Origin: Actinoallomurus spadix
Lineage (GTDB): Bacteria; Actinomycetota; Actinomycetes; Streptosporangiales; Streptosporangiaceae
Length of the DNA stretch: 64,000 bases
Direction of reading: 5' to 3'
NCBI RefSeq assembly: GCF_024055725.1
Contig: NZ_JAMXMX010000010.1
Span: 62,001-126,000 of the forward strand
In this document: positions 13,000 through 39,312 of the stretch, piece after piece
Layout: each line of letters begins with the position of its first letter
Position numbering within the stretch: the first letter of the stretch is position 1
Made by a program: the position numbers and the translations under genes
The notes under the pieces: generated by a model
The model's input: the letters and a program-made list of their open reading frames with translations, nothing else
The model's database searches: none
What the model was told of the DNA's origin: nothing

Positions 13000-13674
13000 A
13001 TGACAACGGCCCTGACCGAATCCGACACTCCAGCGAAGCCGCCCGCACGGCGGTTCTTCCCATCGGACCCCTCGGTCCTCCTGCTGGCGGCGACCGTCGT
13101 GGTCGCCGTCGCGGTGGCTCCGTTCGAGCTGACCACGCTCTTCGGCCTGCCCGCCCACGCGCTGTTCCTGCACGTCCCGGTCGTTCTCGTCCCCATCCTG
13201 GCGGGCGTCGTCATCGCCCTGGCCGTACGCCCCGTCTGGCGGGTGCGGTATGGCCTGGCGGCCGGCGTCTTCGGCATCGTGACGATGGCGGCGACCGTCC
13301 TCACCGCCGGCGCCGGCGAGAAACTGCGGGACGAGCGCATGAAGCGATTCAAGGCGCTCAGCGGCGGCGCCGGCCGGCCGTCGGGCCGACCCGCGGGCGG
13401 CCCGCGCCAGGGCGGCGGAGAGGGGAACCTCCTGGAACGCCACGCCGAGCTGGGCTCGCAGCTGCGCCTGCTCGTGCTCGTCCTCGTCGTCCTCCTGGTC
13501 GTCCTCGTCATCCTCGCGCGGTACCGCGCGTACACGGCGGAGGGCTTCCTCGCCGGTCCGGCGCTCGGCACCGTGGTGGCGGCCCTCGCCGTGGTGGCCG
13601 CCGTCGTCTCGGCGATCTGGGTGATACGGACCGGTCACCTCGGCGCCAAGATGACCTGGCACGAAGGCGGCTGA
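13000..13674 (+). CDS. DUF2231-like membrane protein
   Basis: A 224-residue integral membrane protein with four clear hydrophobic segments and the histidine-bearing LPAHALFLHVPVVLVPILAG pattern typical of DUF2231 proteins. A basic, Gly-rich cytosolic loop (about 125-150, GGAGRPSGRPAGGPRQGGGE) sits between spans two and three. Function unknown; DUF2231 proteins are often near heme or redox genes. The ATG at 13000 is chosen over the in-phase 12901 start because TAGCTT at 12986-12991 lies 8 bases upstream, so the message may be leaderless; no ribosome site is visible. Confidence 0.75.
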   Translation: MTTALTESDTPAKPPARRFFPSDPSVLLLAATVVVAVAVAPFELTTLFGLPAHALFLHVPVVLVPILAGVVIALAVRPVWRVRYGLAAGVFGIVTMAATVLTAGAGEKLRDERMKRFKALSGGAGRPSGRPAGGPRQGGGEGNLLERHAELGSQLRLLVLVLVVLLVVLVILARYRAYTAEGFLAGPALGTVVAALAVVAAVVSAIWVIRTGHLGAKMTWHEGG

Positions 13675-13677
13675 GCA

Positions 13678-13706
13678 CGGGCGGGGGCGCACCCGGCCCC
13701 CGCCCG
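13678..13706 (+). terminator. Terminator hairpin after the DUF2231 gene
   Basis: CGGGCGGGGGC (13678-13688) pairs perfectly with GCCCCCGCCCG (13696-13706), 7-base loop, directly after the stop codon. Confidence 0.75.
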
Positions 13707-13724
13707 GACCGTTCGAGATGAGAC

Positions 13725-13760
13725 GTCGGGGACCGATCCGGACACGGCTCGGTCCCCGAC
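13725..13760. repeat. 12-bp inverted repeat upstream of the first LQVFRC gene
   Basis: GTCGGGGACCGA (13725-13736) pairs perfectly with TCGGTCCCCGAC (13749-13760) around a 12-base loop. It may be a second terminator or an operator/leader structure for the small-protein and carbonic anhydrase genes that follow. Confidence 0.5.
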
Positions 13761-13932
13761 CCGTACGTACGACAGGAGGCCGTCACGGAGGGTGGCGGGA
13801 CCGACACCTCTGCCTGCCCGGACGTGTAGCGCAGCCCCCACCGGCAACATAGAGTCATGAAGCGGCAACTCTTTGTCATCGATGGGAGCCGGGTTGGCCT
13901 CGGGGCGGCGGGCGAGGGACGGTGCGATCCGG

Positions 13933-14334
13933 ATGGCGCGCATGACCGCCGTCATCCTGTGGGCGCTGGCCGTGACCGTCGTCATCCTCGTGCACGGCAC
14001 CGCCCCGCACGGCGCCCATGCGGCGGCCGTACTGGCGTCGATCCAGGCCGATCATCCGGCGCTCTCCCCATGCCCGGCCTCCCGCTCGACGGACCGGCTG
14101 CGCCACGATCCGGGTGACGGCGGCCGGCCCACACCCTGGGGCCACTGCGACGCCGTCCTGCACCGGGCGCCCGCGCCGCCCTCCGGCCCCGGCGCGCAGC
14201 CCCTCCGCCCGTCCACCGCGCAGCCCGCCGGACCGAGTGCGGACCCGCGCGGAACGGCGCCCCGCCGGGCCGACCGCCCGGCACGGCACGCCGCGCAGCC
14301 CGAACCCGCGACCCTGCAGGTCTTCCGCTGCTGA
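13933..14334 (+). CDS. Small membrane-anchored Pro-rich protein ending in LQVFRC (copy 1)
   Basis: A 133-residue protein that I do not recognise. The N-terminus is a single hydrophobic segment (MTAVILWALAVTVVILVHG), which would act as an uncleaved anchor or signal. The rest is low-complexity and rich in Pro, Ala, Arg and Gly. It ends in EPATLQVFRC, the same six final residues as an otherwise dissimilar protein at 36617-36988. Both genes lie directly upstream of a beta-carbonic anhydrase gene, and the last 18 bases (CAGGTCTTCCGCTGCTGA) are identical. The terminal Cys is invariant in the pair. Start uncertain: ATG at 13933 or 13942. Probably co-transcribed with the anhydrase 96 bases downstream. 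Confidence 0.6.
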   Translation: MARMTAVILWALAVTVVILVHGTAPHGAHAAAVLASIQADHPALSPCPASRSTDRLRHDPGDGGRPTPWGHCDAVLHRAPAPPSGPGAQPLRPSTAQPAGPSADPRGTAPRRADRPARHAAQPEPATLQVFRC

Positions 14335-14351
14335 TCCGCGGCCCGCCCGCA

Positions 14352-14379
14352 CGCGCGCGAAGCGGACATGCCGCGCGCG
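14352..14379 (+). repeat. CG-repeat hairpin between small protein and carbonic anhydrase
   Basis: CGCGCGCG at 14352-14359 and again at 14372-14379, self-complementary, with a 12-base loop. It lies just after the LQVFRC stop codon. No T-run follows, so termination is unlikely. Confidence 0.35.
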
Positions 14380-14430
14380 ACGGGACCGCCGGTTCACCTC
14401 ACCCGTCCCCAGCGCGAAGGACTTCGTCCC

Positions 14431-15015
14431 ATGCAGTCACTGATCGACCATGCCCGCAGCTTTCATCAGCAGGTCGCGACCCACCGGGGGCTGCGCTCCC
14501 CGCTCCGGCCGGACCACACCCCACAGGCGATCTTCGTCTCCTGTTCCGACGCCCGGGTCGTCCCCTCGCTGCTCACCGGTTCCACGCCCGGTGACCTGTT
14601 CGAGCTGCGCACCGCCGGCAACGTCATCCCGCCCTACCGGGTGGGGCGGCTGACCGCCGAGGCCGCGACCCTGGAGTACGCCGTGGTGGTCCTCGGCGTC
14701 CGTGACCTGATCGTGTGCGGTCACACCCGGTGCGGCGCGGTCCGCGCCCGTACGAGCGGCGGCGCGCTCCGCCACGCCCCTACGACGAGATTCTGGCTGC
14801 TGCACACGCACCGCTGGCGGGGGATCCGCGCGCAGGAGCAGGAGGACCCGGGCCGGCCGCACCTCATCGCCCAGCTCGACAAGCTCCGCCGCTATCCGTG
14901 GGTGGCCCGGCGCCTGGCCGACGGCACACTGCGGCTGCACGGCTGGTTCTACGACGTCGAGACGGGCGCGGTCTGGAGATACCGGCCGGACACGGGCGCG
15001 TTCGTCCCCCTCTGA
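14431..15015 (+). CDS. Beta-class carbonic anhydrase (copy 1)
   Basis: A 194-residue cytosolic enzyme that interconverts CO2 and bicarbonate. The zinc ligands are Cys38, His98 and Cys101, with the Asp40-Arg42 dyad in SCSDAR and the HTRCGA motif. It aligns without gaps with the second anhydrase at 37182 over at least the first 104 residues, and the two share an MQSLIDxAR start and an identical set of metal-binding positions. The ATG at 14431 has GAAGGA eleven bases upstream; the longer frame from 14368 has no support. The preceding gene encodes a small LQVFRC protein. Unlike the second copy there is no SulP bicarbonate-type transporter beside it; a RodA-like gene follows. Confidence 0.92.
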   Translation: MQSLIDHARSFHQQVATHRGLRSPLRPDHTPQAIFVSCSDARVVPSLLTGSTPGDLFELRTAGNVIPPYRVGRLTAEAATLEYAVVVLGVRDLIVCGHTRCGAVRARTSGGALRHAPTTRFWLLHTHRWRGIRAQEQEDPGRPHLIAQLDKLRRYPWVARRLADGTLRLHGWFYDVETGAVWRYRPDTGAFVPL

Positions 15016-15197
15016 CGCCCTCACCACCGCTCCGCTCCTCGCCTCAGGAACGTTCCCATCACCCCGGGTATGCTCGGAGAGTGACTGATCGATCACCTGC
15101 TGCGATGTGATCACACCATCGCCGGGGTCCGCGGCCGGCGCCGCGACCCCGGCGAGGGATGGTCGGGACCCGTCGGGGGGCGGGTTCGGGGGGTGCC

Positions 15198-16385
15198 ATG
15201 TTCGGATCGCACGACACCGTACGGACGGCGCGGCGACGTTCGCTGCTGCGCCGCTGGTCCGGCCACGAGTCACCGCTGCGCCGGCTCGACTGGGTCCTGC
15301 TCGGCGCCGTCATGACGCTGACGCTCATCGGGACCCTCCTGGTGTGGTCGGCGACCCGGCCGGCCCTGCTGCACACCGGCCAGGATCCGCAGGTCTTCCT
15401 CAAGAAGCACCTGCTGACGGTGGGGCTGGGCTTCGGGCTGGCCGCGCTGGTCGCGGCACTGGACTACCGGCTCGTCCGCGCGTACGCGCCGATCGTCTAC
15501 GGCGCGTCCTGCGTCGGCCTGATCCTCGTTCTCACGCCGCTGGGCTCCACCATCAAAGGGCATCACTCCTGGATCGAGCTGGGCGGCGGCTTCCAGCTCC
15601 AGCCCGCGGAGTTCGCCAAGGTGGGCCTGGTCGTGGTGCTCGCCGTGCTACTCGGCGAGCCGAGAGACGCCCAGACCGCGCCGGACACCCGCGACATCGT
15701 GGCCGCGCTCGCCCTCGCCGGGCTGCTCGCGGGCCTGATCATGATGCAGCCGGACCTCGGGACGACCATGGTCCTCGCCGTCGTCGTCCTGGCGATGATC
15801 GCGATCTCCGGCGCGTCGAAGCGCTGGCTGCTCAGCCTGGTGGCCGGCGGGGTCGGCGGCGGGATCGCCGCCTGGCAGTTCCACCTGCTGAAGCCGTACC
15901 AGATCAACCGGTTCATCGCCTTCGCCGATCCCTCGGCCGATCCGAGGGGCGCGGGATACAACGCGGCGCAGGCCCGCATCGCGGTCGGATCGGGCGGGCT
16001 CGCCGGTCAGGGATTGTTCCGGGGCCAGCAGACCGGCGGCCACTTCGTCCCCGAGCAGCACACCGACTTCATCTTCACGGTCGCCGGTGAGGAGCTCGGC
16101 TTCCTCGGCTCCGCGCTGATCGTCGTGCTCGTCGGAGTGGTGCTGTGGCGGGGCCTGCGCATCGCCGCCCTCTGCCCGAACGGCTTCGGCATGCTCGTGG
16201 CGACCGGGGTCGTGTCGTGGCTGGCGTTCCAGACTTTCGAGAACATCGGCATGACGCTCGGCATCATGCCGATCACCGGAGTCCCACTGCCGTACATCTC
16301 CTACGGCGGGTCGGCGACACTCGCCAACATGCTCGCACTCGGCCTGCTCCAGGCCGTCTACCTGCGCCAGCGCCCCTTCAGCTGA
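15198..16385 (+). CDS. rodA: RodA/FtsW-family (SEDS) peptidoglycan polymerase
   Basis: A 395-residue membrane protein with about ten spans. SEDS signatures are present: SWIELGGGFQLQPAEFAKV, MMQPDLGTTMV (the catalytic Asp is in a later loop), and the C-terminal VPLPYISYGGSATLANM. SEDS proteins polymerise lipid II into glycan strands with a partner class B PBP. RodA rather than FtsW or SpoVE is suggested by LDWVLLGAVMTLTLIGTLLVWSATRP. It stands alone here, not in an mre cluster, so it may be a second copy. The ATG at 15198 follows a run of G residues; an in-frame ATG at 15159 is a possible alternative. Its 3' end overlaps a small gene on the opposite strand by 8 bases. Confidence 0.9.
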   Translation: MFGSHDTVRTARRRSLLRRWSGHESPLRRLDWVLLGAVMTLTLIGTLLVWSATRPALLHTGQDPQVFLKKHLLTVGLGFGLAALVAALDYRLVRAYAPIVYGASCVGLILVLTPLGSTIKGHHSWIELGGGFQLQPAEFAKVGLVVVLAVLLGEPRDAQTAPDTRDIVAALALAGLLAGLIMMQPDLGTTMVLAVVVLAMIAISGASKRWLLSLVAGGVGGGIAAWQFHLLKPYQINRFIAFADPSADPRGAGYNAAQARIAVGSGGLAGQGLFRGQQTGGHFVPEQHTDFIFTVAGEELGFLGSALIVVLVGVVLWRGLRIAALCPNGFGMLVATGVVSWLAFQTFENIGMTLGIMPITGVPLPYISYGGSATLANMLALGLLQAVYLRQRPFS

Positions 16386-32136: not shown

Positions 32137-35100
32137 ATGCCCCAACCTCCCACCCGGCGGCGGCCTCGTCGCCTCCCCCATCCGCTCGCGGTGTCATCCG
32201 TGGGCGGGCGCGTGGGCGCCCTCGTCGTGGCGCTCATGACGGCCGTCCTGACAGTGATCAGCGTTCCGGCGGCCTCCGCGTCCGGCCTCCCGGCCAAGAG
32301 ACCCGTCCCGCACACCAAGGCGTCCGGTCCGGCCGCCCCGGGCCTGCATCCCACCAGCCGGGCGTGCGCCAAGCCGACCCGGGCCGGGGAGATGGCCTGC
32401 CTGTCGTTCGTTCGCGACGACGCCATCGGGCCGAAGGGCGTGCAGCCGAACAGCGACCCGGCCGGACTGGCACCCGCCGATCTGGTCGACGCGTACGCCC
32501 TGCCCGACACGGGCGCGGGGCGGACGGTGGCGATCGTCGACGCGTTCGACAGCCCGAACGCCGAGGCCGACCTGGCGGTGTACCGGCAGCAGTACGGCCT
32601 GCCGCCGTGCACGACCGCCAACGGCTGCTTCAAGAAGATCGACCAGCGCGGTGGGACGAGCTACCCCCCGCCGAACTCCGGCTGGGCCGGTGAGATCGCG
32701 CTCGACGTCGACATGGTCAGCGCGGTCTGCCCCAGTTGCAAGATCCTGCTGGTCGAGGCCGACGACAACTACATGGAGAACCTCGGCGCGGCGGTGAACC
32801 AGGCGGTCGCGCAGGGCGCCAAGTTCGTCTCCAACAGCTACGGCGGCGGTGAGGGCTCCGACGAGATCCAGGCGGACGACGCCTACTTCGACCACCCCGG
32901 CGTCGTGATCACGGCCAGCAGCGGTGACGACGGGTACGGCACGAGCTATCCGGCGGCGTCGCCGGACGTCACCGCCGTCGGCGGCACGTCCCTGGTCAAG
33001 GACTCCTCCGCGCGCGGCTGGACCGAGACCGTGTGGGACGGCGCGGGCAGCGGCTGCTCGGCCTACGAGTCCAAGCCGTCGTTCCAGCAGGACACCGGCT
33101 GTGCCCGGCGGTCGATCGCCGACGTGTCCGCGGTGGCGGACCCGAACACCGGCGTCGCCGTCTACTACGGCGGCTGGCACGTCTACGGCGGCACGAGCGC
33201 GTCGGCTCCGATCATCGCCTCGGTGTACGCGCTCGCGGGCACGCCCGCCGCGGGCTCCGCGCCGAACGCCCTCCCGTACGCCCACCCGGGCGACCTCAAC
33301 GACGTGACGAGCGGGTCGAACGGCGACTGCGACCCGGCGTACCTGTGCACGGCCGGGTCCGGGTACGACGGGCCGACCGGGCTCGGCACGCCGAAGGGCG
33401 TCGGGGCGTTCCGGTCCGGGCCGCACGGCATCGTCACCGGCACGGTCACGGACGGCGCCGCGCCACTGGCCGCCGCCAAGGTCACGGCGGGCGACGCCAC
33501 GACCACGACCGACGGGCAGGGCGACTACACGCTCAGCGTTCCGCCCGGGACGTACGACGTGACCGCGAGCAAGTTCGGCTACGCCGCCAAGACGGTCGCC
33601 GGCGTGCAGGTCGCCGACGGGCAGACGGTGACCGAGAACTTCGCGCTGACCGCCAAGGCGCGCGTCAACGTGACCGGTCTCGTACGGGACGGGTCCGGCC
33701 ACGGCTGGCCGATGTACGCGACGGTCCGGGTCAAGGACGAGCCGACCTCGGTGACGTACACCGATCCGAAGACGGGCCGGTACGCCCTGAGCCTGCCCGC
33801 CGACGACACGTACACGCTGCAGGTCGATCCGCTGTACCCGGGCTACCGGTCCGATTCGGCGGACGTACGGGTCGGGTCCTCCGACACGACGCACGACGTC
33901 ACCACACTGGTGGACCAGACGACGTGCAGCGCGCCCGGGTACGGCTTCACCTACTCCGGCACCACGCAGGGCTTCGACGGCACGGCCGCCCCGGGCGGCT
34001 GGACGGTCGACGACAAGCCCGGCAAGGGCCAGACGTGGGTGTTCGACGATCCGGGCGGGCGCGGCAACCGGACCGGCGGAACCGGCGGGTTCGCCATCGT
34101 CGACAGCGACGAGTACGGCTCGGGCAACACCCAGGACACGTCGCTGGTCAGCCCGGTCCTCGACTTCAGCGGCAAGGCGCACCCGATCGCGTCGTTCCGC
34201 AGCGACTACTACCACTACTCCGGTCAGGCCGGTGACGTGGACCTCAGTGTCGACGGCGGCCAGACGTGGACGACGGTCGCGCACCACGCGGCCAGTGCCC
34301 GCGGTCCCCGGACGGAGACGGCCGACCTGTCGGCGGCGGCCGGCAAGAGCGCGGTCCAGGTGCGGTTCCACTTCACGGGGAAGTTCGGCTACTGGTGGCA
34401 GGTCGACGACGTGTTCCTGGGCGAGCGCACGTGCGCCCCGGTCTCCGGCGCCCTCGTCCTCGGCCAGGTCCTCGACGGCAACACCGGCGCGGGCGTGAAC
34501 GGCGCCACCGTGACCTCGGCCGACCGGCCGGCGGAGAAGGCGACGTCGGCGGCGACGCCGGACGACCCGAACCTCGGTGACGGCTTCTACTGGCTGTTCT
34601 CCTCGGTCACCGGAAGCCACAGGTTCACCGCGTCGGCGAGCGGCTACTCCACCAAGGACGCCACGGTGAACGTGGCGGCCGGCTGGGCCACGGCGGCCGA
34701 CTTCACCCTGGCCGCGCCCCGGCTCGCGGTGACGCCGGCCGAGCTGAAGAAGACGGTGGCCTGGCAGGGGCAGGGCAGCACGACCCTGACCTTGAAGAAC
34801 ACCGGCTCGGCGCCCGTGACCGCCAAGATCGGTGAGCAGAACGGCGACTACCACCCGGCGGCGCAGGGCGCGCCGCTGCAGAAGGTGAAGGGAGACTACG
34901 CGCAGGGCCGGTTCCGCCCGGACAAGAGCGCCACGGCCCGGACGAAGGCCGCCGCCCAGGCCGCCGCGGCACCGTACGCGCCGCCGTGGGCGAGCATCGC
35001 CGACTACCCCTCGACGGTCATGGACAACGCGGTCGTGAACGTCGGCGGCAAGGTCTACTCGCTCGGTGGCGTCGACACCACGTCCGTCCTGAACAAGGCG

Positions 35101-36327
35101 TACGTCTACGATCCGGCGGGCCAGGCGTGGTCATCGATCGCGAACCTGGGCACCGGACGGGAGGCACCGCAGGCCGCGACGGTCGGCGGGAAGATCTACG
35201 TCCTCGGCGGCTGGGGCTCCACCGGCGACGCGGTCGCCAAGACGGAGGTCTTCGACCCGGCGACGGGCGCCTGGTCGGCCGGCGCGGACAACCCCAAGCC
35301 GTACGCCGGAGCCGGCGTCGGCGTCCTCGGCGGCAAGATCTACCTCGTTGGCGGCTGCCTGGACGCCTGCGGCGCGACCGACGTGCAGGTGTACGACCCG
35401 GCGGCGAACTCCTGGAGCTCGGCGGCCGCGTACCCGGAGAAGACCGCCTGGCTCGCCTGCGGCGGGATCGGCGCGAAGCTGTACTGCGCGGGCGGTTCGG
35501 CGACGAGTGTCAGCAGCAGGCACGCCTACGCCTACGACCCGTCGAGCGGGACCTGGTCGGCCGTCGCCGACCTGCCGATCGACCTGTGGGCGATGGGGTA
35601 CGCCACGGCCGGCGGGCAGCTGCTGGTGTCCGGCGGCGTGACCAACGGCACGAGCACGCTGACCAACCAGGGCTTCGCCTACCACCCCGACTCGGACTCC
35701 TGGACGGCCCTGCCCAACTCCAACAACACCCTGTACCGCGGCGGTGCCGCCTGCGGCCTGTACAAGATCGGAGGGTCCAGCGGCGGGTTCAACGCCGTGA
35801 AGAGCGGTGAGACGCTGCCCGGGTACGACCAGTGCGTCGCGACGGCCGACGTCCCGTGGCTGTCGGAGGATCCGACCGAGGTGACGATCCAGCCGGGCAA
35901 GAGCGCCAAGGTCACGGTGAAGTTCGACGCGAACGTCGCCGCGATCACCCAGCCGGGGACGTTCACCGCTCAACTGACGGTCGACGCCAAGACGCCGTAC
36001 GGCGCCACCTCGGTGCCCGTGACGCTGACGGTGAATCCGCCGTCGACGTGGGGGAAGATCACCGGGACGGTGACGGGCGCCGGATGCACCGGCGCGCCGG
36101 CGCCGCTGGCCGGGGCGACCGTGCAGATCGACAGCTGGACGGCGGGCTACACGCTCAAGACCGACAAGAACGGCCAGTACGTGCTCTGGCTCGACGTCCG
36201 CAACAACCCGCTCACCCTGATCGCGGCCAAGGACGGCTGGGCGCCGCAGAGCAGGTCCGTCAAGATCGTGAAGCTGGCGTCCACGACGGCCGACTTCGCG
36301 CTCAAGCCGGATCACGCCTGCGGCTGA
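32137..36327 (+). CDS. Very large secreted sedolisin (S53) protease with MAM-like, Kelch and carboxypeptidase-regulatory-like domains
   Basis: A 1396-residue exported protein with a signal peptide (cleavage near ASAS, residue 48). The sedolisin domain (about 80-430) shows the Glu-Asp pair E186 and D190 in GEIALDVDMV and the nucleophile Ser354 in GGTSASAP; ASSGDDGYG supplies the oxyanion Asp. The large inhibitory propeptide usual in S53 is short here. After the protease follow CarboxypepD_reg-like beta-sandwiches (VTGTVTDGAAPLAAAKV; VTGLVRDGSG), a MAM/immune-inhibitor-A-like domain (about 595-770) and another sandwich. A set of Kelch repeats (about 950-1220, such as GGKIYVLGGWG, GAKLYCAGG) and a final CarboxypepD_reg domain complete it. 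AGGAG precedes the ATG and a perfect hairpin follows the stop. Probably an acid-tolerant extracellular or wall-associated protease. Confidence 0.9.
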   Translation: MPQPPTRRRPRRLPHPLAVSSVGGRVGALVVALMTAVLTVISVPAASASGLPAKRPVPHTKASGPAAPGLHPTSRACAKPTRAGEMACLSFVRDDAIGPKGVQPNSDPAGLAPADLVDAYALPDTGAGRTVAIVDAFDSPNAEADLAVYRQQYGLPPCTTANGCFKKIDQRGGTSYPPPNSGWAGEIALDVDMVSAVCPSCKILLVEADDNYMENLGAAVNQAVAQGAKFVSNSYGGGEGSDEIQADDAYFDHPGVVITASSGDDGYGTSYPAASPDVTAVGGTSLVKDSSARGWTETVWDGAGSGCSAYESKPSFQQDTGCARRSIADVSAVADPNTGVAVYYGGWHVYGGTSASAPIIASVYALAGTPAAGSAPNALPYAHPGDLNDVTSGSNGDCDPAYLCTAGSGYDGPTGLGTPKGVGAFRSGPHGIVTGTVTDGAAPLAAAKVTAGDATTTTDGQGDYTLSVPPGTYDVTASKFGYAAKTVAGVQVADGQTVTENFALTAKARVNVTGLVRDGSGHGWPMYATVRVKDEPTSVTYTDPKTGRYALSLPADDTYTLQVDPLYPGYRSDSADVRVGSSDTTHDVTTLVDQTTCSAPGYGFTYSGTTQGFDGTAAPGGWTVDDKPGKGQTWVFDDPGGRGNRTGGTGGFAIVDSDEYGSGNTQDTSLVSPVLDFSGKAHPIASFRSDYYHYSGQAGDVDLSVDGGQTWTTVAHHAASARGPRTETADLSAAAGKSAVQVRFHFTGKFGYWWQVDDVFLGERTCAPVSGALVLGQVLDGNTGAGVNGATVTSADRPAEKATSAATPDDPNLGDGFYWLFSSVTGSHRFTASASGYSTKDATVNVAAGWATAADFTLAAPRLAVTPAELKKTVAWQGQGSTTLTLKNTGSAPVTAKIGEQNGDYHPAAQGAPLQKVKGDYAQGRFRPDKSATARTKAAAQAAAAPYAPPWASIADYPSTVMDNAVVNVGGKVYSLGGVDTTSVLNKAYVYDPAGQAWSSIANLGTGREAPQAATVGGKIYVLGGWGSTGDAVAKTEVFDPATGAWSAGADNPKPYAGAGVGVLGGKIYLVGGCLDACGATDVQVYDPAANSWSSAAAYPEKTAWLACGGIGAKLYCAGGSATSVSSRHAYAYDPSSGTWSAVADLPIDLWAMGYATAGGQLLVSGGVTNGTSTLTNQGFAYHPDSDSWTALPNSNNTLYRGGAACGLYKIGGSSGGFNAVKSGETLPGYDQCVATADVPWLSEDPTEVTIQPGKSAKVTVKFDANVAAITQPGTFTAQLTVDAKTPYGATSVPVTLTVNPPSTWGKITGTVTGAGCTGAPAPLAGATVQIDSWTAGYTLKTDKNGQYVLWLDVRNNPLTLIAAKDGWAPQSRSVKIVKLASTTADFALKPDHACG

Positions 36328-36616: not shown

Positions 36617-36988
36617 GTGCTCAGGGCACGCGGAGGCTGGATCGCAGCGGTGCTGCTGATCGCGCTGGCCTTCCTCGGGGGTCCCGACCTCCTGACCTCC
36701 GGCCATTCGCCGGTCCCCGCCTCGGCCGCCTCGTCGGCGACCGAGCGCGACAACCGGGCCGGCGAGGAGCCGGTCGGCTCCGCCTCGGTCACCGCGCACC
36801 TCATGCCCGGTCGTCGCCGGATACCAGGCCTGCCGCCCGACCACGAAAGCCGCTCGGTCCTCACGACCGGGCAGACCGGTGTCACCGCCGCTCCGCCTCC
36901 CGGACCGGCCGGCGCGCTCCTCGACCGCGACCTCACGCGGCACCCTCTCGGGTCCACTCCCGAGTCACTACAGGTCTTCCGCTGCTGA
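36617..36988 (+). CDS. Small membrane-anchored Pro-rich protein ending in LQVFRC (copy 2)
   Basis: A 123-residue protein of unknown family. It begins VLRARGGWIAAVLLIALAFL, a single hydrophobic anchor after a basic n-region, and continues as a hydrophilic, Pro/Ala/Arg-rich tail. It ends GSTPESLQVFRC, the same last six residues as the protein at 13933-14334; both also have an Arg-His about 11-15 residues before the end. The genes lie in the same place, just upstream of a beta-carbonic anhydrase. The GTG at 36617 is preferred (AGGGGG 4 bases upstream); an ATG at 36587 and a GTG at 36491 are in phase, but the latter has no room for a ribosome site. Probably co-transcribed with the anhydrase and SulP genes. 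Confidence 0.6.
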   Translation: MLRARGGWIAAVLLIALAFLGGPDLLTSGHSPVPASAASSATERDNRAGEEPVGSASVTAHLMPGRRRIPGLPPDHESRSVLTTGQTGVTAAPPPGPAGALLDRDLTRHPLGSTPESLQVFRC

Positions 36989-36993
36989 GCGAC

Positions 36994-37038
36994 GCCGCCT
37001 AGGGCGGCCCACCGCCCGTTCTCTCCTTCTTCTTCTCC
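36994..37038 (+). promoter_or_regulatory. Mutually exclusive hairpins with pyrimidine tract after the LQVFRC stop codon
   Basis: GCCGCC (36994-36999) can pair with GGCGGC (37003-37008), or GGGCGG (37002-37007) can pair with CCGCCC (37012-37017). The second hairpin is followed by GTTCTCTCCTTCTTCTTCTC, a T/C tract. The first begins only 5 bases after the stop codon, so a terminating ribosome could cover it. This has the form of an attenuator or translation-coupled terminator; stems are only six bases. Confidence 0.35.
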
Positions 37039-37181: not shown

Positions 37182-37787
37182 ATGCAGTCGCTGATCGACA
37201 ACGCTCGTCTCTTCCCGAAGCGAGCCGCCGACCGGCGTACGGACCTCGGCCGTCTGGCCGAGGGCCAGCGCCCCGAGGCGCTCTTCATCACCTGCTCCGA
37301 CTCCCGCGTGGTGCCCACGCTGATCACCGGCGCCGGTCCGGGCGAGCTCTTCGAGCTCCGCACCGCCGGGAACATCGTCCCGGTCCACAACGCCGAGCGG
37401 GTTACCGCCGAGGCCGCCACGATCGAGTACGCCGTCGAGGTGCTCGAGGTCGCCAACGTCATCGTCTGCGGGCACTCGCACTGCGGAGCCGTGGGCGCGC
37501 TCCTGAGCGCCGACGGCCTGCCCGCCGTGCCCACGGTCCGGCGCTGGCTCAGCCACACCGAGCCCCACGACCCCGTACGCGACGCCATGACCGACGCGGA
37601 CGGACCCGCGATCAGCTCCGCCGTCCAGCGGCACGTGCTGACCCAGCTCGACCGGCTCCGCACCCATCCGAGCGTCGCGACGCGGGTGAGGGACGGCCGG
37701 CTCGCGCTGCACGGCTGGTTCTACGCCATCGACACCGGCGTCGTCAGCGCCCACCGCCCGGACGCCGGCACCTTCCTGCCGCTCTGA
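37182..37787 (+). CDS. Beta-class carbonic anhydrase (copy 2)
   Basis: A 201-residue zinc enzyme, CO2 + water to bicarbonate. Cys38, Asp40, His98 and Cys101 occupy the same positions as in the copy at 14431, and the sequences start alike (MQSLIDNAR). The C-terminus differs slightly, with an insertion of a few residues near 130. AGAGAGGG precedes the ATG. It is followed 28 bases later by a SulP transporter and preceded by the LQVFRC protein, so the three form a likely operon for bicarbonate supply. Confidence 0.93.
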   Translation: MQSLIDNARLFPKRAADRRTDLGRLAEGQRPEALFITCSDSRVVPTLITGAGPGELFELRTAGNIVPVHNAERVTAEAATIEYAVEVLEVANVIVCGHSHCGAVGALLSADGLPAVPTVRRWLSHTEPHDPVRDAMTDADGPAISSAVQRHVLTQLDRLRTHPSVATRVRDGRLALHGWFYAIDTGVVSAHRPDAGTFLPL

Positions 37788-37815
37788 AACCCTCCCGACC
37801 TGGAACGAGGTGAAC

Positions 37816-39312
37816 ATGGCACCGCCCCTCTCCGGACGTGCCGCCCCCCGGCGCTTCCCGCATTTCCGGCAAGACCTGCTCTCATCGATCGTCGTCTTCC
37901 TCGTCGCCCTGCCCCTGTGCATCGGCGTCGCGGTCGCCTCCGGCGTCCCGGCCGAGCTCGGCCTGGCGACCGGCATCGTCGGCGGCCTGGTCGCCGGCGC
38001 CCTGCCGGGCAGCAGCCTGCAGGTCAGCGGCCCGGCCGCCGGCCTGACCGTGCTCGTGTTCGAGGCCGTGCGGGAGTACGGCCTGCGGTCCCTTGGACTG
38101 ATCGTCCTCGCCGCGGGCCTCATCCAACTCGGGATGGGCGCGCTGCGCCTCGGACGCTGGTTCCGCGCGATCTCGATCTCGGTCGTGCACGGCATGCTGG
38201 CCGGTATCGGGCTGGTCCTGGTGACCGGCCAGGTGCACAGCCTGTTCGATAACAAATCACCCGGCGCGGCGATGGCCAACGTCGCCGGCCTGCCGGACCT
38301 GTTCGCCGACTCGGCGAGCGAACCGGCCGCCCTCGCCGCCGGCGGAATCGGCATCGGCACGATCGTCGTCCTGGTCTGCTGGAAGTACGCGCCGAGGCGG
38401 CTGCGGGTGATCCCGGGCGCGCTCGTCGCGGTGGCGCTGGCAACGCTGGTCACGGTCGCCTTCGACCTTCCGGTCAAGCGCATCGAGGTCAAGGGCCTGC
38501 TCGGCGCGATCCAGCCGCCGAGCCCGGCCGACCTCGGCGGGCTCGTCTCGATCGGCGCGGTCGGCACCATCGTGGCGTTCGCGTTGATCGCCTCGGCGGA
38601 GAGCCTGTTCAGCGCGGCGGCCGTCGACCGGATGCACCACGGCCCGCGCACCCACTACGACCGGGAGCTGATGGCGCAGGGGGCCGGCAACATGGTGTGC
38701 GGGCTGCTCGGCGCCCTGCCCATGACCGCCGTCATCGTACGGAGCGCCACGAACGTGCAGGCCGGCGCCCGCACGAAGGCGTCCCGAATCCTGCACGGGG
38801 TCTGGCTGCTCGCATTCACGGTGATCTTTCCGGTGGCCCTGGAGTACATCCCGGTGACCGCCCTCGCCGCCATCCTCGTGCACGCGGGCTGGAAGCTGCT
38901 GTCGCTGCGGGAGGTCGGCCGGCTCTGGCGGACCGAGCGCGGCGAGGCGGTCGTCCTGACCGGCACGGCCCTGGCGATCGTCGTCACGAACCTGTTCGAA
39001 GGCGTCCTCATCGGCCTGCTGCTGGCCGTTATCAAGACGGCATGGGACGTCTCGGATATCCACATCCATGTGGACGAGCAGGCGGATCCGCTCGTCATCC
39101 GGCTCACCGGGAACGCGACGTTCCTCCGCCTGCCGAAGGTGCTCGACGCCCTGGAGAGGATCCCGCATGGCCGGGCGGTCGAACTCGACCTGTCCGGCCT
39201 GCGCCACCTCGACCACGCCTGCCGGACGGCGCTGGAGTCCTGGTCCGCTCAGCACCGCGAACGGGACGAGACGTCCTCGGTGCGGATCGCGGAGCCGGCC
39301 GCCGCCGGATGA
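37816..39312 (+). CDS. SulP family anion (probable bicarbonate/sulfate) transporter
   Basis: A 498-residue membrane protein with 10-12 spans. The family start FRQDLLSSIVVFLVALPLCIGVAVASG and the LQVSGPAAGLTVLVFEA signature are present; residues about 415-490 form a short STAS-like domain (VIRLTGNATFLRLPKVLDAL...VELDLSGLRHLDHACRTALESW). SulP proteins move sulfate, bicarbonate or related anions; the adjacent carbonic anhydrase argues for bicarbonate. GAGG lies 5 bases before the ATG at 37816; a GTG two codons upstream is less likely. Ends 10 bases before the convergent SanA-like gene. Confidence 0.92.
   Translation: MAPPLSGRAAPRRFPHFRQDLLSSIVVFLVALPLCIGVAVASGVPAELGLATGIVGGLVAGALPGSSLQVSGPAAGLTVLVFEAVREYGLRSLGLIVLAAGLIQLGMGALRLGRWFRAISISVVHGMLAGIGLVLVTGQVHSLFDNKSPGAAMANVAGLPDLFADSASEPAALAAGGIGIGTIVVLVCWKYAPRRLRVIPGALVAVALATLVTVAFDLPVKRIEVKGLLGAIQPPSPADLGGLVSIGAVGTIVAFALIASAESLFSAAAVDRMHHGPRTHYDRELMAQGAGNMVCGLLGALPMTAVIVRSATNVQAGARTKASRILHGVWLLAFTVIFPVALEYIPVTALAAILVHAGWKLLSLREVGRLWRTERGEAVVLTGTALAIVVTNLFEGVLIGLLLAVIKTAWDVSDIHIHVDEQADPLVIRLTGNATFLRLPKVLDALERIPHGRAVELDLSGLRHLDHACRTALESWSAQHRERDETSSVRIAEPAAAG

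Follow-up and report, generated by a model that had tools for sequence, protein, structure and literature searches.

TnaC and SpeFL are leader peptides whose translation stalls at the termination step when a metabolite is sensed. Arrest peptides of the Sec/YidC group were sought by Sakiyama et al. by means of five features, and the accessible part of that paper gives ApcA and ApdA as actinobacterial examples (PMC7897499). A re-annotation of Streptomyces lividans names, in its accessible text, eight leader peptides, all of them amino-acid attenuators, and those with a stated length comprise 12–29 amino acids (aa; PMC8079986). Pairs of a carbonic anhydrase (CA) with a SulP transporter, as well as SulP bicarbonate transporters, were treated by Felce & Saier 2005 and Price et al. 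2004, as cited in PMC5489568, and the accessible part of the latter leaves the use of the CA-SulP pair in carbonate-forming Streptomyces as an open question. Here, we describe two open reading frames (ORFs) in a stretch of 64,000 nucleotides (nt) of Actinoallomurus spadix (contig NZ_JAMXMX010000010.1, positions 62,001 to 126,000; the window, below), each of which ends in LQVFRC directly at a UGA stop and precedes a beta-CA gene. Comparison with related loci leads us to propose that such a leader ORF probably encodes a cis-acting regulatory nascent peptide of an inorganic-carbon operon with the order leader-CA-SulP. The two loci comprise the following features:

13933..14334, + strand: leader ORF 1, ATG start, 133 aa, ends LQVFRC-TGA
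14314..14334, + strand: LQVFRC codons and UGA stop of leader 1, conserved
14431..15015, + strand: CA1, beta-carbonic anhydrase (Pro_CA; Pfam PF00484, E 1.1e-35)
36617..36988, + strand: leader ORF 2, GTG start, 123 aa, ends LQVFRC-TGA
36968..36988, + strand: LQVFRC codons and UGA stop of leader 2, conserved
37182..37787, + strand: CA2, beta-carbonic anhydrase (Pro_CA; PF00484, E 1.5e-43)
37810..39312, + strand: SulP-family transporter (Sulfate_transp and STAS), third gene of the operon (PF00916, E 1.9e-65)

Both ORFs with their LQVFRC ends and positions before CA genes read as given in a preliminary description of this DNA. Leader 1 consists of a hydrophobic N-terminal segment (MARMTAVILWALAVTVVILVHG) followed by a variable Pro/Arg-rich tail, and leader 2 likewise of an N-terminal hydrophobic segment and a variable tail. 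The CA start lies 96 nt (CA1) and 193 nt (CA2) behind the leader stop. The final 18 bases had been described as identical, which holds when the TGA stop is included (CAGGTCTTCCGCTGCTGA) but not for the LQVFRC codons taken by themselves, where 17/18 bases are equal and Leu is CTG in leader 1 and CTA in leader 2. In the 8.02-Mb genome, LQVFxC before TRR occurred only at the two window sites and not at all in a reversed control, and the looser pattern [LF]Q[VIM]FxC retrieved the same two sites. The SulP protein of the window, whose substrate we infer to be bicarbonate or another anion, shares 66% identity with a Streptomyces SulP that also has the leader upstream. The CA1 operon is without SulP, and an FtsW/RodA-type gene (15159–16385) lies right after CA1.

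A search of 345 genomes of the window's order with the pattern LQVFxC-TRR returned 17 sites in 14 genomes. Sixteen of these read LQVFRC-TGA, and all 16 were located upstream of CA (15) or SulP (1, L031); for L031/L035, a longer DNA stretch showed SulP 274 nt downstream. The seventeenth site (L024, LQVFVC-TGG) was not upstream of either gene. Within the window's genus (8 genomes), the CA2-type leader was present in 8/8, ending in LQVFRC (3) or LQIFRC (5), and the three loci with a CA1-type gene (the window and two further genomes) all had a leader, giving an LQ[VI]FRC-stop leader at 11/11 CA1/CA2-type genes; a twelfth, distant CA match (L022, 30% identity) was without one. Searching 296 genomes across the class with a looser pattern yielded 30 sites including the window's two. 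Beyond the window, LQ[VI]FRC-TGA was upstream of CA (9) or SulP (1, L247) in 10/10 cases, whereas none of the 18 other matches of the same pattern had CA or SulP within 1500 nt downstream, including the chance LQIFRC matches L240 (CGG, TAA stop) and L241 (AGA, no stop). The ten linked leaders came from 10 of the 27 sampled genomes of a single genus, which comparison with named loci suggests to be Streptomyces, and no CA- or SulP-linked match was seen in the 296-genome class sample outside this genus and the window's family. In addition, a scan of named GTDB genomes gave at least 118 stretches, showing that the leader is common in Streptomyces and its relatives. Eighty of these were taken as loci (5 duplicate order-search loci), from Streptomyces, Kitasatospora, Actinomadura, Actinoallomurus and Sphaerisporangium. 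The ending was in frame in 80/80, with CA next in 61, SulP next in 16 (15 by tblastn, and L088 from its SulP start, read at the locus end) and the locus end intervening in 3. Distances from the leader stop ranged from 43 to 417 nt for CA and from 122 to 718 nt for SulP. The pattern counts in genome, order and class ruled out a chance origin of the association. The preliminary description had coupled the ending to CA genes and suggested tabulating the gene behind LQVF(R/K/L)C endings; with SulP counted, this tabulation upheld the coupling for LQVFRC-TGA (16/16 in the order, 10/10 in the class and 77/80 listed loci, the other 3 running into the locus end), compared to 0/18 for other endings in the class.

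The leader proteins were compared in a set of 101 (96 distinct, L035, L042, L048, L057 and L071 repeating L031, L027, L007, L025 and L029), outside which the ten class-search leaders lie. Composition and length statistics exclude six leaders with an ORF that extends past the end of its locus (L010, L064, L071, L087, L100, L111), and leader starts are settled for the two window leaders (133 and 123 aa) and the plasmid example, annotated with 117 aa, start codons elsewhere not being fixed. Judged by hydropathy, a hydrophobic segment precedes the tail in 90/91 complete non-duplicate leaders (exception L043), and the net charge of the N-region was positive in 87/90; from this basic N-region we infer that the tail is located outside the cytoplasm. 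The AxA signal-peptidase motif was found in 66/70 Streptomycetaceae leaders vs. 53.5 expected by shuffling, and in 14/20 leaders of the window's order vs. 13.6 expected, i.e., not above expectation. The membrane segment of the preliminary description is therefore present, but rather than specifically a tether, it looks like a Sec signal or signal anchor with an extracytoplasmic tail. One leader signal region gave a sub-threshold match to N_methyl. The stretch behind the hydrophobic core, counted up to the C-terminus, had a median length of 107 aa in Streptomycetaceae (interquartile range 104–110) and 107.5 aa in the window's order (101–113), with 90–162 aa over all leaders measured. Despite this near-constant length, the bulk of the tail sequence is unconserved, and its ratio of nonsynonymous to synonymous substitutions (dN/dS) was 0.81 (median of 1049 non-independent pairs) compared to 0.31 for CA, by which estimate the tail evolves almost neutrally. 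The leader body had a coding-like G+C content at the three codon positions (0.757/0.643/0.865). Gap length modulo three was dropped as coding evidence, because in-frame cutting forces the net gap and many of the 58 pairs are non-homologous. Strong selection on the C-terminus, as claimed earlier, is supported.

Could the leader be a stable small protein, secreted or anchored in the membrane, that assists SulP in trans via its C-terminal LQVFRC, e.g., as a small subunit or assembly factor, so that the operon position reflects ordinary functional clustering? The signal or anchor, the amino acid-level conservation of the C-terminus and the retention of the leader with SulP after CA loss would all be in line with such a protein. 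We nevertheless consider it unlikely, given the near-neutral tail, the failure of 12 leaders (both window leaders and ten from other loci) to match any Pfam or NCBIfam family above its cut-off and an FtsW/RodA-like gene rather than SulP behind CA1. Furthermore, an Arg codon restricted to CGC/CGT and a rare AGA at codon −16 point to a role at the translation or RNA level.

The motif is kept as a peptide, with codons of Leu, Val/Ile and occasionally Phe varying between leaders, up to L262, which encodes VFRC as GTT TTT CGT TGC. FRC-TGA was constant in every leader counted (L259 and L265 are without FRC). While the search pattern of the 80-locus scan itself fixed the stop and most motif bases, FRC-stop also ends the variant leaders and those of 6/7 plasmid loci found via CA, so adjacency to the stop is more than a search artefact. 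Arg(−2) was encoded by CGC in 38, CGT in 2 and CGG in 0 of 40 leaders retrieved by searches that left this codon free (a tally that leaves out the chance matches L240 and L241), and by CGC in 80/80 listed loci, where the scan admitted CGC and CGG; in the CA genes belonging to the same loci, CGG accounts for 293/936 Arg codons. This restriction could stem from the decoding tRNA, an account based on wobble rules, or from a small CAG...CUG hairpin within the codons. In 59/75 Streptomycetaceae leaders (within L034–L113), codon −16 is AGA and the adjacent codons vary. Elsewhere, AGA makes up 2/936 Arg codons in CA and 2/364 in SulP. The same codon recurred at −16 in 10/10 class-search Streptomyces leaders, 3/6 plasmid leaders and 2/21 leaders in the window's order, and our guess is that it acts as a programmed slow step ahead of the end of translation. 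Pairing of AGA(−16) with GGUCU in the Val/Phe codons was ruled out, because AGA persists when Val is GTG. In L246–L255, Leu(−6) is the rare CTT in 5/10, compared to 12/1066 Leu codons in CA genes.

In Streptomyces, an RNA stem (GACGCGCC/GGCGCGCC) lies immediately 5' of the CA Shine-Dalgarno sequence and persists in several CA-less loci. The stem positions paired in 91.8% of cells in 69 loci (61 distinct; the hairpin set missed 11 of the 80 loci), compared to at most 63.6% in slid controls. The RNA references comprised 48 listed loci, leaving out L103, L075, L057 and spacers outside 60–160 nt, and 38 were aligned. In the window, one further pairing was predicted:

14314..14436, + strand: predicted pairing of the leader-1 end with the CA1 Shine-Dalgarno-start region, weak (duplex −22.2 kcal/mol)

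This duplex compares with a control-window mean of −14.2 kcal/mol, and the whole-fold z-score of −0.67 was not significant. Pairing of the leader end with the Shine-Dalgarno sequence was clearest in the genus's 3 CA1 loci, and any action of a stalled ribosome on the mRNA may differ between clades. No intrinsic terminator was detected at 13600–15100, and one weak terminator-like match lies after leader 2 (37001–37022). A purely RNA-level attenuator, in which the codons are kept for an mRNA fold or for pairing with the CA Shine-Dalgarno sequence and the peptide is incidental, would make use of the hairpin adjoining the Shine-Dalgarno sequence and of the leader-1 pairing, and the small predicted CAG...CUG hairpin within the motif would explain the CGC/CGT restriction. 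We regard it as very unlikely, as the same peptide is spelled synonymously, most synonymous codings would pair equally or better (with a median weight of 0.91 for 61 loci and of 0.67 for the other 19), no Rfam family matched in window positions 13500–39500, and the hydrophobic N-terminus is retained in 90/91 leaders.

We also compared the operon layouts. Nineteen genomes chosen for holding the ending contained exactly one such ending apiece, and their gene order was leader-CA-SulP or leader-SulP. Altogether, the leader was kept without an operon CA in 17 loci (16 of the 80 listed and L247). Several leader-SulP loci carry a mini-ORF with the CA start region (hairpin, AGGAGG, ATGCAGCC...), ending just before SulP, and by reading, the mini-ORF of L044 retains both CA ends. 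In L039, L044, L067, L078, L089 and L113, the CA has shrunk to a short ORF reaching the SulP start, apparently an enzyme gene turned translational coupler. Retention of the 5' control region with loss of the operon CA argues against the leader serving that enzyme physically. Because another CA-like gene (E ≤ 1e-20) was found in 6 of the 7 leader-SulP genomes among these 19, the leader might in principle act on a distant CA. The preliminary description had suggested a tether, a docking peptide for CA or a function in redox chemistry or metal delivery. Having CA next in 61/80 listed loci, a last residue that is Cys in every leader counted and the CA-like genes elsewhere would suit this role. However, the operons of 17 leaders are devoid of CA, and the search of the leader-SulP genome G362 gave not a single CA match at E ≤ 1e-20. 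Moreover, the predicted topology places the tail outside the cytoplasm, and the CAs downstream begin with MQSLID... and have no signal. Docking of the leader to CA is therefore unlikely, and this family of roles as a whole highly improbable.

Among 165 plasmid records that matched, 20 were listed (S. clavuligerus accounting for 14), and seven loci were examined. Six of the seven, found via CA, have a leader ending in IQAFRC, LQTFRC, LQIFRC or LQVFRC (3) directly before the stop, and one has none; the leader ORF was annotated in 3/7, as a hypothetical protein. In L273, on a Streptomyces globosus plasmid (NZ_CP030864.1), the leader-CA-SulP operon adjoins gamma-butyrolactone ScbA/ScbR-type genes. 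In the window, just upstream of leader 2, lies an ORF of 1396 aa (32137–36327) that contains Kelch repeats as well as carboxypeptidase-regulatory-like domains.

With its signal sequence, variable middle and fixed C-terminal hexapeptide, the leader also has the outline of a precursor that exports a C-terminal signalling peptide from a variable pro-region, as modelled on Phr/PapR. We give this very little credence, since the peptide is the same in two groups rather than strain-specific and never occurs away from CA/SulP among resolvable loci, and no receptor gene was noticed in the annotated 2–3 kb flanks of six plasmid loci, for which the tables are incomplete. Least probable of all is ribosome-mediated attenuation by Cys or Arg codons as in an amino-acid starvation leader, which the terminal Cys and the rare AGA at −16 might recall but which is at odds with the lack of any single-codon run in the last 24 codons, with downstream genes that are not amino-acid genes and with an export signal that attenuation would not need.

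Several lines of evidence thus argue for a cis-acting regulatory nascent peptide: no orphan was found among resolvable loci, in contrast to 0/18 for other endings; the leader is retained without operon CA, in several loci with a mini-ORF that keeps hairpin and Shine-Dalgarno sequence; the motif is conserved at the peptide level; a signal segment and constant tail length go along with a leader body of much higher dN/dS than CA; and the Arg codon is biased, with a Streptomyces hairpin beside the Shine-Dalgarno sequence. This set of features (cis position before the same operon, export signal, length-fixed but sequence-free spacer, invariant residues at the very C-terminus) is the one that marks regulatory nascent peptides, and four of the five features in the accessible part of Sakiyama et al. 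(PMC7897499) were found in the leader.

Other observations weigh against this proposal. The case has been assembled from sequence comparison, the motif is unlike any known arrest sequence in having neither RAPP nor RGP, and a rationale for coupling export to carbon uptake is not evident. Regarding the RNA, the Streptomyces stem showed 5 compensated double-change cells vs. 0.6 in shuffles, with 2–9 in slid controls; covariation was detected at 0/13 stem pairs in the first alignment (A1), and a second, wider alignment (A2) gave the stem weak support. Masking a ribosome at the stop left the predicted Shine-Dalgarno accessibility at 0.306 vs. 0.307 (n = 39), and across loci there was no general complementarity between leader end and Shine-Dalgarno sequence. 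A simple switch by ribosome occlusion of the Shine-Dalgarno sequence was rejected, as folding predicted no change in accessibility. Finally, among 32 genomes picked for lack of a pattern match, 9 had a CA2-like gene (E ≤ 1e-45), in 13 loci. Three of these loci have variant leaders, ending in RGFRC, HCVFRC and LPVFRC directly before the stop, two have shortened or diverged leaders without FRC (L259, L265), and eight are without a leader within 500 nt, as are six further paralogous CA-SulP operons. Such operons without leader or without FRC indicate that control by the leader is not obligatory. In L259 (G569), the leader consists of the signal segment and a few residues, with the hairpin and CA-SulP present downstream, and is a natural case of leader loss.

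Were the leader to act as a regulatory nascent peptide, its hydrophobic N-terminal segment and basic N-region should engage the Sec pathway, while the nascent C-terminus would act in the ribosome exit tunnel and the peptidyl-transferase centre, slowing the last peptide bonds or termination. Because FRC sits directly at the stop, UGA termination by release factor 2 (RF2) would be the more likely slowed step. Ribosome dwell time could change when the N-terminus is exported, as it does in SecM, MifM, VemP and ApcA, or alternatively in response to a small signal such as bicarbonate, CO2 or pH, and would set what share of the downstream mRNA gets translated; candidate inputs are export efficiency, pH or proton motive force, and bicarbonate. 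A more specific version is a SecM-shaped nascent-chain sensor of inorganic carbon, in which the FRC end blocks UGA termination, the rare AGA pause 16 codons earlier tunes Streptomyces leaders, and bicarbonate/CO2, acting either directly or via the proton motive force that drives export, releases or holds the ribosome so that CA and transporter are made on demand. We put this forward tentatively, leaning somewhat against it. If true, two actinobacterial groups would possess an arrest peptide that has the architecture of an export monitor but a role other than protein localisation. If the leader stalls ribosomes at all, it would tie CO2/bicarbonate supply to export or to the nascent chain and add an arrest motif acting at termination. 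The leader also offers a way into the question of when the CA-SulP pair comes into use.

The earlier view that no such system had been described agrees with the literature matches listed for arrest and leader peptides, upstream ORFs, actinobacteria, CA and SulP, among which we found neither a description of the leader nor leader-peptide control of CO2/bicarbonate supply; the string LQVFRC was not found in the literature search. The downstream genes belong to the CA-SulP pairs and SulP bicarbonate transporters covered in PMC5489568, whose accessible text does not mention the leader and contains 'upstream' 0 times in its main part. In a follow-up survey of arrest peptides (PMC10987492), 'carbonic' and 'SulP' are absent from the accessible main text. 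The S. lividans attenuators resemble the leader in being small ORFs before metabolic operons, and they come from the genus to which many of its relatives belong, but none named in the accessible text of PMC8079986 precedes CA or SulP, and 'carbonic' occurs there 0 times.

The Sec/YidC arrest peptides SecM, MifM, VemP, ApcA, ApdA and ApdP are closer in build. By the criteria in the accessible part of PMC7897499, they share with the leader an 80–200 aa ORF upstream of the regulated gene. Both also have an N-terminal topogenic signal (for the leader, by hydropathy only), a hydrophilic domain of at least 40 aa (90–162 aa in the leader) and a subgroup-specific conserved C-terminus (LQ[VI]FRC in the leader, FRC-stop in variants). 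In contrast, they precede sec/yidC, whereas the leader precedes CA/SulP in all resolvable loci; the RAPP/RGP motif of the ApcA/ApdA/ApdP class does not occur in the last 24 codons of the leader; and the conserved residues of the leader, unlike theirs, abut the UGA stop. Position before sec/yidC and RAPP/RGP being the two tested features it lacks, we set the leader apart from this group, and by analogy think it rather probable that it works like an arrest peptide without being a member. With TnaC and SpeFL, the leader has in common that key residues adjoin the stop codon (FRC-TGA) and that a metabolic or transport operon follows, possibly with a metabolite as the signal, although it is much longer, carries an export signal and uses different residues. 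Of the known modes of action, stalling at UGA as in TnaC would fit best with the position of FRC.

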